This document shows, in pieces, positions 29,019 to 37,876 of a DNA stretch of 37,876 bases. The notes below the pieces were generated by a model, which saw nothing but the letters and a program-made list of their open reading frames with translations, had not been told where the DNA came from and searched no databases. Where the stretch lies: contig JAFVAL010000044.1 in NCBI GenBank assembly GCA_017480565.1, positions 1 through 37,876 on the forward strand, read 5' to 3'. Numbering within the stretch: position 1 is the first letter of the stretch; every line of letters begins with the position of its first letter. The stretch comes from Lachnospiraceae bacterium (GTDB lineage Bacteria; Bacillota; Clostridia; Lachnospirales; Lachnospiraceae). Position numbers and translations under genes: made by a program.

Positions 29019-30503
29019 TTATTCTGCAGTAGCCTGCTCTCTCTCTTTGATGGTCTTCTGGACTTCAACCATCTTCTCGCGGGAAAGTTCACTCTTCTTC
29101 ATCGCAAGAACCGTGCAGATCCAGCCAAGGATCGGGAAGCCGATCAAGAGAACAACCGTCATAACCTTAAGCGGTGTGGTGAGCGGATCACCGAGCTGCG
29201 GAGCCGTCGTGGTGTAGCCGATCATTGCGATCATACCAGTTGCGATCGTCGCACCCAGGGAGGAAACCAGCTTATCTACGAAGCTATAAGTTGCAGAAAC
29301 AGATGCCGGCAGGAACTTACCGGAACGATACAGCTCATAGTCAACGATGTCCATACGCAGCGCATTTGTTGCTGTGGAGACAATCATCTTAGCGGCATTA
29401 TTTCCAAAGACGAAGATAAAGAAGATGATGGTCGGAACGATCGCTCTCGTTACCTTCGTGGTATCCGTAAAGAGTAAGAATACTGCATAAAGTACATTCA
29501 TGATCAGGCAAACCCAAGTCCAGTCAACCATGACCTTCTTGTTGCCGTACTTACCGGCAAGTCTTGCACCAACAATTGCGAAGACGATGCCCGGGAGCAT
29601 TGCCACGATCGTGATGATCGAGGAAATGGAGTAGTTCTGGATCATGATACCGTAGAGCATAACGGTAACGACAGAGACAGAACCGATGGTCTGTGCCAGC
29701 TTATCAGAAACCGCTGCGATCATGTAACGCTGCAGTTCTTTGTTATCCTTAATCAGTGCCCACATATCCTTCAGGGAAGGCTTCTCATCGGTCTTGCCAT
29801 CCTGGGAAATACCTTCGAAGTTCTCAGCCTTATCATACGGTGCAATACCGATGCAGGAAAGCAGATAGAATACCAGAGAAAGTACCACGCAAAGGATGTT
29901 GAACGTTGCAAGGAACGGTCCGTTGACCTGGTTGTCAAATCTCGGAAGCAAAGCCGCCTGGCTGATGCCCATGAGCACCATCGGAGCCAGATAAGAATAA
30001 ATCGTGGAGAACACACTGATGGTAGGACGCTGCTTCGGGTCATCCGTCATGATGTTACCGGTCATAGAAGTTGCGACACCAACCAGGGTATATCCGATGA
30101 TGTAAATCATGTAGCAGACGATGAAGAAAATGAGTCCGCCTACACCAGATAAATGTCCGGCACCGAAGTTACACATCGCAGAGGTTGCCAGTGCCATGAC
30201 TGCCCAACCGATGAGCATGAAGATACGAATCTTACCATGCTTCGGATTGAAACGCTCGATGATAAACGCACAGATCGGGTCTGTCACGCCGTCGAAGATT
30301 CTGGAAGCCGTGATGACGACACCTGTCACCGCAACCAAGATACCATAGTTAACGTTACCAATGTAGGTTGCATAGGTCATCAGCATGTAGAAACACATCT
30401 GACCTGCACCGGTCAACTGAGACAAAGCGATCTGCCACATTTTGGCTCTCTTGTACTGCACGCCGTCCTGCTAAGCAACCGTAACTTTTTCTTTCTTACT
30501 CAT
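29019..30503 (-). CDS. GPH-family (MFS-type) sugar:cation symporter with in-frame amber codon near the start
   Basis: This is a 12-helix glycoside-pentoside-hexuronide transporter. The best ribosome binding site (GGAGAGG) precedes an ATG at 30503, which reads MSKKEKVTVA and then a TAG (30473-30471) before QDGVQYKRAKMWQIALSQL in the same frame. A GTG at 30461, with a weak AGGA before it, could start a 480-residue protein that still covers all helices. Family motifs are DGVTDPICAFIIERFNPKHGKIR (loop 2-3) and YELYRSGKFLPASVSATYSF. It heads the beta-galactosidase operon and is divergent from an AraC regulator, so it probably imports the oligosaccharide the GH2/GH1 enzymes hydrolyse. The stop may be a point mutation, a sequencing error or a natural leader peptide arrangement. 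Confidence 0.88.
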
Positions 30504-30556
30504 TGTAAAACCTCTCCTTAAATTGTTTGGAATTGCTTCCGTTTCTTGTTGATTTT

Positions 30557-30617
30557 ATACTAGCAGGATTTTGCCATTTATGTTAGAATGATTTTGCAAG
30601 TATTAGAACGATTTTAT
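30557..30617. promoter_or_regulatory. Three direct repeats in the shared GPH-operon/araC control region
   Basis: The related 14-mers TAGCAGGATTTTGC (30561-30574), TAGAATGATTTTGC (30584-30597) and TAGAACGATTTTAT (30604-30617) start 23 and 20 bp apart, about two helical turns. A minus-strand -10-like TAGTAT (30562-30557) has no good -35 box, and the middle repeat covers that position, as expected for an activated promoter. These are good candidate sites for the divergent AraC-type regulator. Confidence 0.7.
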
Positions 30618-30636
30618 CTTATTAGGGAAATTAGCG

Positions 30637-30763
30637 TGAAAAATGCATTGATATGCATTTTTCATCACTGTCTATTTGTGCCGGAGCGTCACAAATAGAC
30701 TTGATGGCAGATGAGAAATTGCATTCGCAATTTCTCATCGCCCCGTCGCGTTAGACGCTCCGG
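30637..30763 (+). promoter_or_regulatory. Highly structured leader/palindrome cluster upstream of the AraC regulator
   Basis: Three perfect hairpins follow each other. H1 is TGAAAAATGCAT/ATGCATTTTTCA (30637-30664). H2 is GTCTATTTGTG/CACAAATAGAC (30670-30700), extendable by CATCA/TGATG. H3 is GATGAGAAATTGC/GCAATTTCTCATC (30710-30739), extended by GGC/GCC. The H2 loop plus one base, CCGGAGCGTC (30681-30690), is exactly complementary to GACGCTCCGG (30754-30763), directly before the ribosome binding site (GAGG, 30767-30770), giving a possible pseudoknot. H1 and H3 arms are also cross-complementary with few mismatches. A cis-regulatory RNA or a dispersed palindromic repeat element are both possible. 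Confidence 0.75.
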
Positions 30764-30776
30764 AATGAGGATTAAT

Positions 30777-31976
30777 ATGGATTTTCGTCTTTTTTCGTCG
30801 GTATTAAACAATTTGCTCAATGTTTCTGTTCTCGTGACCTCCAAAGAGAACCCTGATCTAGCTTCTTTTTCAGAGAAGTACTGTTACCACCCGGTGCTTC
30901 AGCCAGCCTTCACCTTAGAGACTCTGACACAGTACGCCTCGCAGATGCAGGAGAAAACCATTTATGATCTGCGTGACGATCTCGGTATCTGTATCCAGTT
31001 TTTTCTGATTGAAGAATCCCTTGTCATTGTCGGCCCCTTTGTGAGAAATGAATTTCCTGAAGCGAAAGTACAGTCCCTTTTGATCTCCCACAGTATCCCT
31101 GCTTCTTACAGCGCTTCCGTGAGGCTCTATTATAGCTCTTTCCCTCTGCTCTCCGCAACGCACACCAGGGATACCATCTTAGGCTGCATCCGCGCTTTTG
31201 TGGGGCAAAGTGAGAACTACTACTATCAGCACCTGCGCAAGCTGGAGCCTAACGGCTCCCTTCCCCACGCACCCAGGGAAGAATCTTTGGATTACCTTTC
31301 CATCTATCATCGCTATGATCTGGAAAACAGATTCCTCCGCACCATCGAAACCGGGGATACAGAAAATGTTCTGATTGCTCAATACGCCATGAGCGCTGAT
31401 GGCATGAACCAGAACCGATATGTCAATGCCGTATATCAAGACCCCGTTGTCGGCATTTCGATGATTCGCGCACTGGCGCGAAAAGCCGCGGAGCGCGGCG
31501 GTGCCTCTTTAATCGACATCCACGAGATCACGCAGCGAAATGTCCAGCGAACCCTTGCTGCCAAAAATGTCCAGGAGCGTGTCCGTTATCTCGATCAGAT
31601 GCTCGTGGAACTTTCTGAAGCCGTGCGCATCAGCAAGCAGCACATGAGCAATTACTCTGCACCGATTCGCCGCGTCGCAGAGTACATTGGGTTGAACTTC
31701 AGCCAGGAGATCTCCCTCGATCAGCTTGCGGACTTGATTGGATACGCACCTACGTATCTGTCGAAGACATTTACGAAAGAAGTCGGAATGACCATCACCA
31801 GGTATATTGCGATGCTCCGCTGCCAGAAGGCTGCCCAGATGCTGCGTGACGAAGACTTGACCGTGCAGGAAATCAGCCATTACGTTGGGTACATGGATAA
31901 TAATTATTTCGTAAAGGTGTTTAAAAAGCAGTATGGGATGACACCCACGGAGTATCGGAAGGAAAAGGAACCCTGA
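30777..31976 (+). CDS. AraC-family transcriptional regulator of the beta-galactoside operon
   Basis: This is a 399-residue protein from the ATG at 30777 (MDFRLFSSVLNN), 6 nt after GAGG; an in-frame start further upstream would read through the structured leader. The first 280 residues form a sensor region without a family I can name with certainty, somewhat like the N-terminal regions of YesN-like AraC proteins lacking a receiver. The C-terminal 100 residues are a double AraC HTH (ISLDQLADLIGYAPTYLSKTF ... LTVQEISHYVGYMDNNYFVKVF), ending KKQYGMTPTEYRKEK. It is divergent from the GPH-GH2-GH1-GH2 operon and is its likely activator through the direct repeats between them. Confidence 0.9.
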   Translation: MDFRLFSSVLNNLLNVSVLVTSKENPDLASFSEKYCYHPVLQPAFTLETLTQYASQMQEKTIYDLRDDLGICIQFFLIEESLVIVGPFVRNEFPEAKVQSLLISHSIPASYSASVRLYYSSFPLLSATHTRDTILGCIRAFVGQSENYYYQHLRKLEPNGSLPHAPREESLDYLSIYHRYDLENRFLRTIETGDTENVLIAQYAMSADGMNQNRYVNAVYQDPVVGISMIRALARKAAERGGASLIDIHEITQRNVQRTLAAKNVQERVRYLDQMLVELSEAVRISKQHMSNYSAPIRRVAEYIGLNFSQEISLDQLADLIGYAPTYLSKTFTKEVGMTITRYIAMLRCQKAAQMLRDEDLTVQEISHYVGYMDNNYFVKVFKKQYGMTPTEYRKEKEP

Positions 31977-37694: not shown

Positions 37695-37876
37695 ATCGAG
37701 TAGGAGGAAGTTTCTCTGATCGAGAAACTTCCGATCTCTCACACCACCGTACGTACCGTTCGGTATACGGCGGTTCAATCAACTTAACAAGAAACACACC
37801 TCGCGGTGTAGTAGTCTAACATGGAGATTAGCCCGAAGTCGGCTAATCTCTTGTTGCTTATAGCCTTATGAACCCA
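37695..37876 (-). mobile_element. Group II intron, 3' end (domains V and VI), continuing beyond the window
   Basis: Reading the minus strand, after the reverse-transcriptase stop comes a domain V-like hairpin (37776-37743). ACCGCCGTA pairs with TACGGTGGT including a C-G, G-U, C-G catalytic-triad-like step, with an upper TACC/GGTA stem, a GAAC loop and the diagnostic 2-nt CG bulge on the 3' side. Domain VI follows: GGAAGTTTCTC/GAGAAACTTCC (37732-37706), closed by ATCG/CGAT, with an unpaired A seven bases before a 3' end at CTCGAT, a good branch point. The 5' part lies outside the window. Confidence 0.8.
37784..37876 (-). CDS. Group II intron reverse transcriptase/maturase, C-terminal end (partial)
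   Basis: An open frame enters from the right edge and encodes 30 residues to a TAA (HKAISNKRLADFGLISMLDYY... SC). It lies immediately upstream of domain V on the minus strand, where the intron-encoded protein of bacterial group II introns ends. The final LISMLDYY-type stretch resembles the tails of such proteins, but no catalytic motif is inside the window, so identity rests on position. Confidence 0.6.
   Translation of the reverse strand, partial: WVHKAISNKRLADFGLISMLDYYTARCVSC

Follow-up and report, generated by a model that had tools for sequence, protein, structure and literature searches.

A dispersed, structured repeat at translation-initiation sites in Lachnospiraceae

The stretch of Lachnospiraceae DNA analysed here (the window: all 37,876 nucleotides, nt, of contig JAFVAL010000044.1, assembly GCA_017480565.1) carries a structured element directly before the start codon of a gene for an AraC-family regulator. 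The element is a conserved RNA fold, composed of three hairpins (H1, H2 and H3) and a pseudoknot that the H2 loop forms with a downstream tail. Furthermore, it is dispersed, with filled and empty sites in close relatives, and a new Shine-Dalgarno (SD) sequence can come from its 3' end. Since dispersal, fixed position, empty sites, an element-borne SD and a conserved fold come together, we regard it as a mobile, structured translation-initiation-site element. The window copy is probably one member of a non-autonomous mobile family of about 140 nt, which inserts in sense orientation at translation-initiation sites, with 3-4 nt left to the start codon at the sites examined, and which would be tolerated by its hosts or in places used as a switch.

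In the window, the region before the AraC start folds beyond chance (z = -7.96; none of 200 shuffles folds equally well). An earlier note on this DNA had described three perfect hairpins of 12, 11 and 13 bp there, and all are found, on the plus strand: H1 (30637-30648 with 30653-30664), H2 (30670-30680 with 30690-30700, with a 9-nt loop) and H3 proper (30710-30722 with 30727-30739). The last, recovered by hairpin search and covariation, is lengthened by a GGC/GCC extension (30706-30708 with 30740-30742), both together spanning 30706..30742. Perfect hairpins of at least 11 bp with a loop of 3-10 nt occupy seven places across the 37.9 kb window, and H1, H2 and H3 are three of them. The H2 loop strand of the pseudoknot, CCGGAGCGTC (30681-30690), which contains an SD-like GGAG, pairs exactly with the tail GACGCTCCGG (30754-30763), and the resulting 10-bp duplex amounts to -19.8 kcal/mol before loop costs. 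The ten-base complementarity described earlier is therefore exact, with the qualification that its last C (30690) also closes H2, so that the free loop counts 9 nt. A further proposal, an alternative fold in which the arms of H1 and H3 pair with each other, holds less well: because their complementarity is only partial and the duplexes (-4.9 and -6.7 kcal/mol) lie far below the hairpins' own energies (-12.8 and -17.7 kcal/mol), such a fold is weak.

Downstream of the tail, whose CTCC may alternatively pair with an SD, lie 3 nt (AAT), the GAGG motif (30767-30770) and the AraC ATG at 30777. No empty site was found for the window copy, for which no dedicated search was made; the ends of the element are therefore placed by analogy with filled and empty pairs of other copies, which suggests a mobile element of 141 nt (30633..30773, plus strand). 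Its 3' end, AATGAGGATT (30764..30773), holds the SD used by araC, a part that is element-borne in four empty/filled pairs of relatives. By the same analogy, AGGGAAATT (30624..30632), upstream of the element, is the probable remnant of an older SD. A possible upstream reading frame of 20 codons (GTG AAA AAT ... TAG; 30636..30698), putatively coding, arises from the insertion. The AraC-family regulator itself occupies 30777..31976 (Pfam HTH_18, E 1.9e-22; HTH_AraC, E 7.5e-20), like all these parts on the plus strand.

The conservation of the fold was assessed in 97 copies from 94 loci picked among the listed hits (loci L032, L033, L040, L073 and L075-L078 were left out, and three of the copies are second hits within a locus). 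The alignment was fitted to H1-H3 and not to the loop-tail helix. Over the cells of H1, H2, H3, the extension and the loop-tail helix, 96.6% are standard pairs, and changes on both sides are seen in 38 of the 48 pairs, including all 12 of H1, 8 of the 11 in H2 and 6 of the 9 in the loop-tail pseudoknot helix. The covariation score reaches 0.439, compared with 0.139 for shuffles that keep sequence relatedness (0/500) and at most 0.046 for slid controls. Loop and tail also fit each other when alignment columns are set aside (7.58 versus 6.53 nt, 0/2000 permutations, 165 of 181 copies), in a comparison from which relatedness is not removed. Thus, the compensatory changes anticipated for the hairpins and for the loop and its ten-base partner are present. 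The G-U cells (126, versus 63 A-C cells) favour folding of the sense strand, an excess that does not separate RNA from sense-strand DNA. Additionally, two congeneric genomes, about 95% identical in shared loci and listed with 23 and 16 matches (overlaps and fragments included), allow the pace of change to be compared: in six orthologous copies 12 of 858 element sites differ, against 103 of 2400 in the flanks (p 3e-5; eight pairs were aligned, and two, non-orthologous on one side or both, stand outside the count). This slower change is due either to constraint or to conversion.

Copies are numerous in the element's own genome. A 134-nt stretch of it has eight near-full copies there (89-100% identity, itself included), together with one partial copy and short matches, and a covariance model built from ten own-genome copies recovers twelve places in the same genome at E of 4e-11 or better. 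Among 299 genomes of the same family, 47 (the own genome included) match the model at E <= 0.01, and 18 of these hold at least 10 copies each; in a class-wide draw, the three genomes out of 391 that match at E <= 1e-5 all belong to that family. The 23-nt H2 hairpin, searched in named genomes, occurs at at least 80 loci, among them Acetatifactor, Roseburia, Eisenbergiella, Lachnospira, Candidatus Fimimorpha and other Lachnospiraceae; among the matches listed there are also a few metagenome-assembled genomes of Clostridium, Clostridiales, Eubacteriales or Bacillus. It is very likely that the element family belongs to Lachnospiraceae. Being short and non-coding, with many similar copies at different sites per genome, it is a bacterial small interspersed repeat in the broad sense, and the other reading offered in the earlier note, a mobile palindromic repeat, turns out right in substance. 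Tandem copies exist as well (L058, L124, L137 and L212). At the gathering score, Rfam matches neither the element in the window nor its relatives in nine further loci, and a lax Rfam search of the element stretch returned unrelated families only (lowest E 0.21). A plasmid search with the element gave no match, and one 23-nt version of H2 has no exact match in viral contigs. The element is seen at 73-74% in three 'phage' records from faeces; it lies at 3001-3149 of L336 and 1179-1327 of L337, unverified and unannotated 'Bacteriophage sp.' contigs from human faeces which may be bacterial DNA.

The position of the copies relative to genes is far from arbitrary. A start codon with a reading frame lies within 60 nt downstream in 90 of the 97 copies, and the start codon stands exactly 13 nt past the paired tail in 69 of the 97, compared with 1.3% of 4800 random positions in related DNA. 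In further copies (78 of 84 used, with a rougher tail finder) an open reading frame (ORF) starts within 60 nt in 67 of the 78, and at 13 nt in 39. Because the covariance model itself contains SD and ATG columns, loci were also taken by the H2 hairpin alone; with seven matches near contig ends left out, 62 of 75 such loci have an SD together with a start codon and an ORF within 170 nt, versus 912 of the 4740 positions drawn at random. The presence of many copies at unrelated sites had been named beforehand as an argument against a regulatory leader. Such copies do exist, but their landing is non-random, at a fixed distance to start codons, and since the element holds a fixed place at the ribosome-binding site (RBS) an effect on translation is plausible.

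The genes behind the element belong to unrelated families. The ten typed by Pfam encode an AraC regulator, the electron-transfer subunit of dihydroorotate dehydrogenase, a response regulator, a TetR regulator, GatC, cytidylate kinase, desulfoferrodoxin, a Flp1-like pilin, PspC and a germination protease; LysR, GatB, MetK and others were identified by eye only. No functional relation of the kind expected in a regulon was found among the targets. The initial proposal of a leader controlling translation of the AraC regulator and its beta-galactoside operon is thus kept as far as a structured leader goes and abandoned as to specificity, since copies precede unrelated genes; they do not always stand before araC-type genes, and an AraC-specific leader is ruled out by the dispersed copies of the own genome. 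In one locus (L072, 1327-1648) a SAM riboswitch (1327-1441) is followed by the element (1501-1648) and by a gene that is metK-like by sequence, two structured leaders in a row; that riboswitch, adjoining the element, is the single Rfam match in the nine loci with relatives.

Evidence for mobility comes from the comparison of the two congeners. For 13 copies (L281 not among them) the two flanks were fused at the RBS, and both genomes were searched with the joined sequence. At seven of these sites the other genome lacks the element (empty sites), and at one (L274) just the end of the tail is left as a remnant; two are filled in both (L275, L283), one is matched by its downstream flank only (L261) and two have no match there (L264, L284). 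The clearest example has AAGAGGTGTACTGATATG as its empty site, while the filled site reads AAGAGGTGTACT, then the element from AGTGTGAAA to CGGAATGGAGATT, and then GATATG. The old SD is kept upstream, AATGGAGATT is added by the element, and the junction falls three nt before the ATG. Three other sites (L262, L272 and L282) agree with it, so that in four sites the SD is element-borne and the native SD is not duplicated. The distance from junction to ATG is nearly constant (3-4 nt), whereas that from the native SD to the junction varies (about 1-6 nt; by eye, in seven sites of one genome pair). As to direction, we infer gain at these sites and not exact loss. In L270 and L279 the same gene is preceded in the congeners by different versions of the element, and the upstream flanks do not align.

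Some observations weigh against this account of the insertions. The empty sites all derive from a single congener pair. In two of them (L266 and L273) the 3' SD resembles the native one, as a duplication would, and L260 is uninformative on the origin of the SD. Moreover, some copies have an identical SD on both sides, which a simple mechanism lacking duplication does not explain. Left and right flanks are more alike than under permutation within genomes (mean longest common substring 6.55 versus 5.73, 0/5000; 78 of the 97 copies, from genomes with four or more), and therefore a share of the copies carries a duplicated or homogenised SD, which may stem from target duplication, similarity-guided targeting or later conversion. 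Plain target duplication, suggested by this likeness, was a reading corrected by the empty sites, with their element-borne SD.

What the element might do to the gene behind it can be proposed from its pairing possibilities. The tail contains CTCC or CTCA as a putative anti-SD stretch and could pair alternatively with the H2 loop or with the SD, thereby acting as a switch. Pairing of tail and loop would keep the tail away from the SD, and the host gene would be translated. Ribosomes entering from the old upstream SD would run into H1 and H2 and open the pseudoknot, and the freed tail would then cover the SD. Such ribosomes could enter H1 and H2 because the insertion puts a start-like codon behind the old SD, as is found in 83 of the 97 copies. 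In this manner the host would tolerate the element, or at some sites employ it, as a translational switch. A conserved leader peptide finds no support: the upstream frame ends at varying places and has no fixed frame relative to the gene (28, 33 and 22 of 83). Consistent with a switch, the H2 loop carries the same SD-like letters as the SD, the types of loop, tail and SD co-occur (GCTCC with GGAG, GCTCA with TGAG), and in two consensus tails pairing with the SD is worth -4.9 and -3.9 kcal/mol. Over all copies, the tail-SD covariation is not reached in 5000 permutations, a signal which is mostly lineage-bound. Three results speak against the switch, however. Inside single genomes, tail and SD fit each other only marginally, with 152 of 5000 permutations scoring as high (94 of the 97 copies); the tail-SD hairpin of the window copy itself is weak (-2.3 kcal/mol); and in nested folding, which leaves out pseudoknots, the openness of the SD is 0.57 if the element is removed, 0.39 if its body is shuffled and 0.33 if it is present as such (96 of the 97 copies), so that a fold which keeps the SD open finds no support there.

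It is quite possible that the family is a purely selfish repeat, whose fold serves mobility through an intermediate of single-stranded DNA or RNA, whose 3' SD makes insertions survivable, and which leaves the host gene unregulated. The target genes form no coherent set, movement between the congeners is recent, conserved hairpins would suit a structured intermediate, and the switch is only weakly supported by nested folding and by the tail-SD fit within genomes. Against this stand the pseudoknot, which joins tail and loop right beside the SD under strong covariation, and the excess of G-U over A-C cells, which favours folding of the sense strand, be it RNA or DNA.

Mobilisation by a known family, namely IS200/IS605 with its Y1 transposase, a group II-type reverse transcriptase, or IS110 with a bridge-RNA-like transcript, is a less likely explanation. 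The layout, with the target kept at the left, a similar motif at the right end and subterminal hairpins, resembles that of IS200/IS605, a structured transcript recalls the bridge RNAs of IS110, and the identical SDs that flank some copies would suit target-primed reverse transcription. Nevertheless, each of the three candidates is absent from several of the 18 high-copy genomes, which comprise 17 of the 18 genomes with at least 10 copies (G152 left out) and G299, and which were compared with 16 element-free genomes picked from 252. Y1 is found in 7 of the 18 (in two as short fragments only, one of those below the cut-off) versus 11 of the 16 (p 0.10), and the reverse transcriptase domain RVT_1 in 10 of the 18 versus 12 of the 16 (p 0.30), both in the wrong direction; IS110 exceeds the cut-off in 9 of the 18 and in 6 of the 16. 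Thus, Y1, unmatched in 11 high-copy genomes, finds no support as the mover, although its past presence is possible, and neither do RVT_1, unmatched in 8, and IS110, which does not exceed the cut-off in 9 (G000, G043, G062, G095, G099, G108, G183, G219 and G299). Two of these, G108 and G219, match none of the three, with the proviso that draft genomes may miss copies and that a mover may have been lost. In a more ambitious and tentative scenario, possible but less likely than not, the family would represent a novel class of mobile element which recognises translation-initiation sites when it integrates, whose transcript is the switch (on with tail and loop paired, off with tail and SD paired) and whose enzyme belongs to a family not yet linked to such repeats. 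If so, every insertion would place an identical riboregulator, along with a short upstream frame served by the old SD, in front of another unrelated gene.

Finally, a riboswitch-like cis-regulatory RNA of a true regulon, answering to one signal and spread vertically and by leader duplication, would account for the conserved complex fold, for a pseudoknot always near the SD and for the slow change of orthologous copies, but is highly improbable given unrelated targets that differ between congeners, seven empty sites with precise presence or absence at orthologous genes, and eight copies in one genome that are 89-100% alike.

Other features of the window lie outside the element. Divergent from araC, on the minus strand, is a transporter gene which, if read from the ATG at 30503, has an in-frame TAG at codon 11 (30471-30473); a GTG start at 30461 lies downstream of it, and the TAG may reflect a truncated start, a mutation or a sequence error. 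Between the two divergent genes are direct repeats at 30554-30574, 30577-30597 and 30610-30626 (81% and 76%), with a spacing which we take to resemble that of AraC operator half-sites. Near the contig end a group II intron (37695-37775, minus strand) exceeds the Rfam gathering score, as the one match of the window in that search.

Small bacterial repeats are mostly regarded as intergenic debris, whereas members of this family sit at ribosome-binding sites and can give a gene a new SD, and their RNA pseudoknot, preserved in many genera of one bacterial family, shows strong covariation. Should the fold tune translation, expression would be rewired one gene at a time by insertions, and a folded leader in such bacteria could not be taken for a gene-specific riboswitch. 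Since sites occur both empty and filled, mobility as well as regulation can be tested directly.

Several known systems share traits with the element. SAM-II and preQ1-II riboswitches control translation by a pseudoknot beside the SD, as the element might, but sense ligands and belong to particular gene families. Palindromic elements derived from IS200/IS605 and the REP/RAYT system are likewise non-autonomous, with folded subterminal structures and strand-specific insertion; they differ in depending on a Y1 transposase, which most of the high-copy genomes lack in our search, and to our knowledge insertion at start codons is not a feature of theirs. A term search in a review of prokaryotic miniature inverted-repeat transposable elements (MITEs) found no mention of SD, ribosome binding or start codon, and we recognised no description of the family among titles and abstract beginnings, a coverage outside which most subscription journals fall. 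Within the window copy no terminal inverted repeats join both ends (the ends of other copies were compared by eye). In contrast, BOX and RUP repeats carry terminal inverted repeats, which form pairs with one another (passages of PMC3049150), and expressed reading frames are reported there for BOX in Streptococcus pneumoniae (PMC3049150). The same passages mention neither insertion of BOX, RUP or SPRITE at a fixed distance before start codons nor a supplied SD, sequence kinship being left out of this comparison (PMC3049150). ERIC, Correia/NEMIS, CIR and other small repeats are, like the element, about 100-200 bp long and intergenic, with folded transcripts and some reading frames, but ERIC, Correia/NEMIS and CIR are mostly MITE-like, with terminal repeats and duplications (parts of PMC2229807). 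The terms ribosome binding and start codon are absent from the text of PMC2229807 on small repeats, and nothing similar to RBS insertion appears in the parts considered of these two papers (PMC3049150, PMC2229807). The closest idea is that of mobile attenuators, which are leaders derived from mobile elements and placed before different unrelated genes, as is our element (sections of PMC2965389). Those leaders are transcription terminators left by insertion sequences (PMC2965389), whereas the window copy, the one copy scanned, has no terminator-like site at 30480-30800 and lies at the SD. We file the family among small interspersed repeats, as an apparently undescribed variant.
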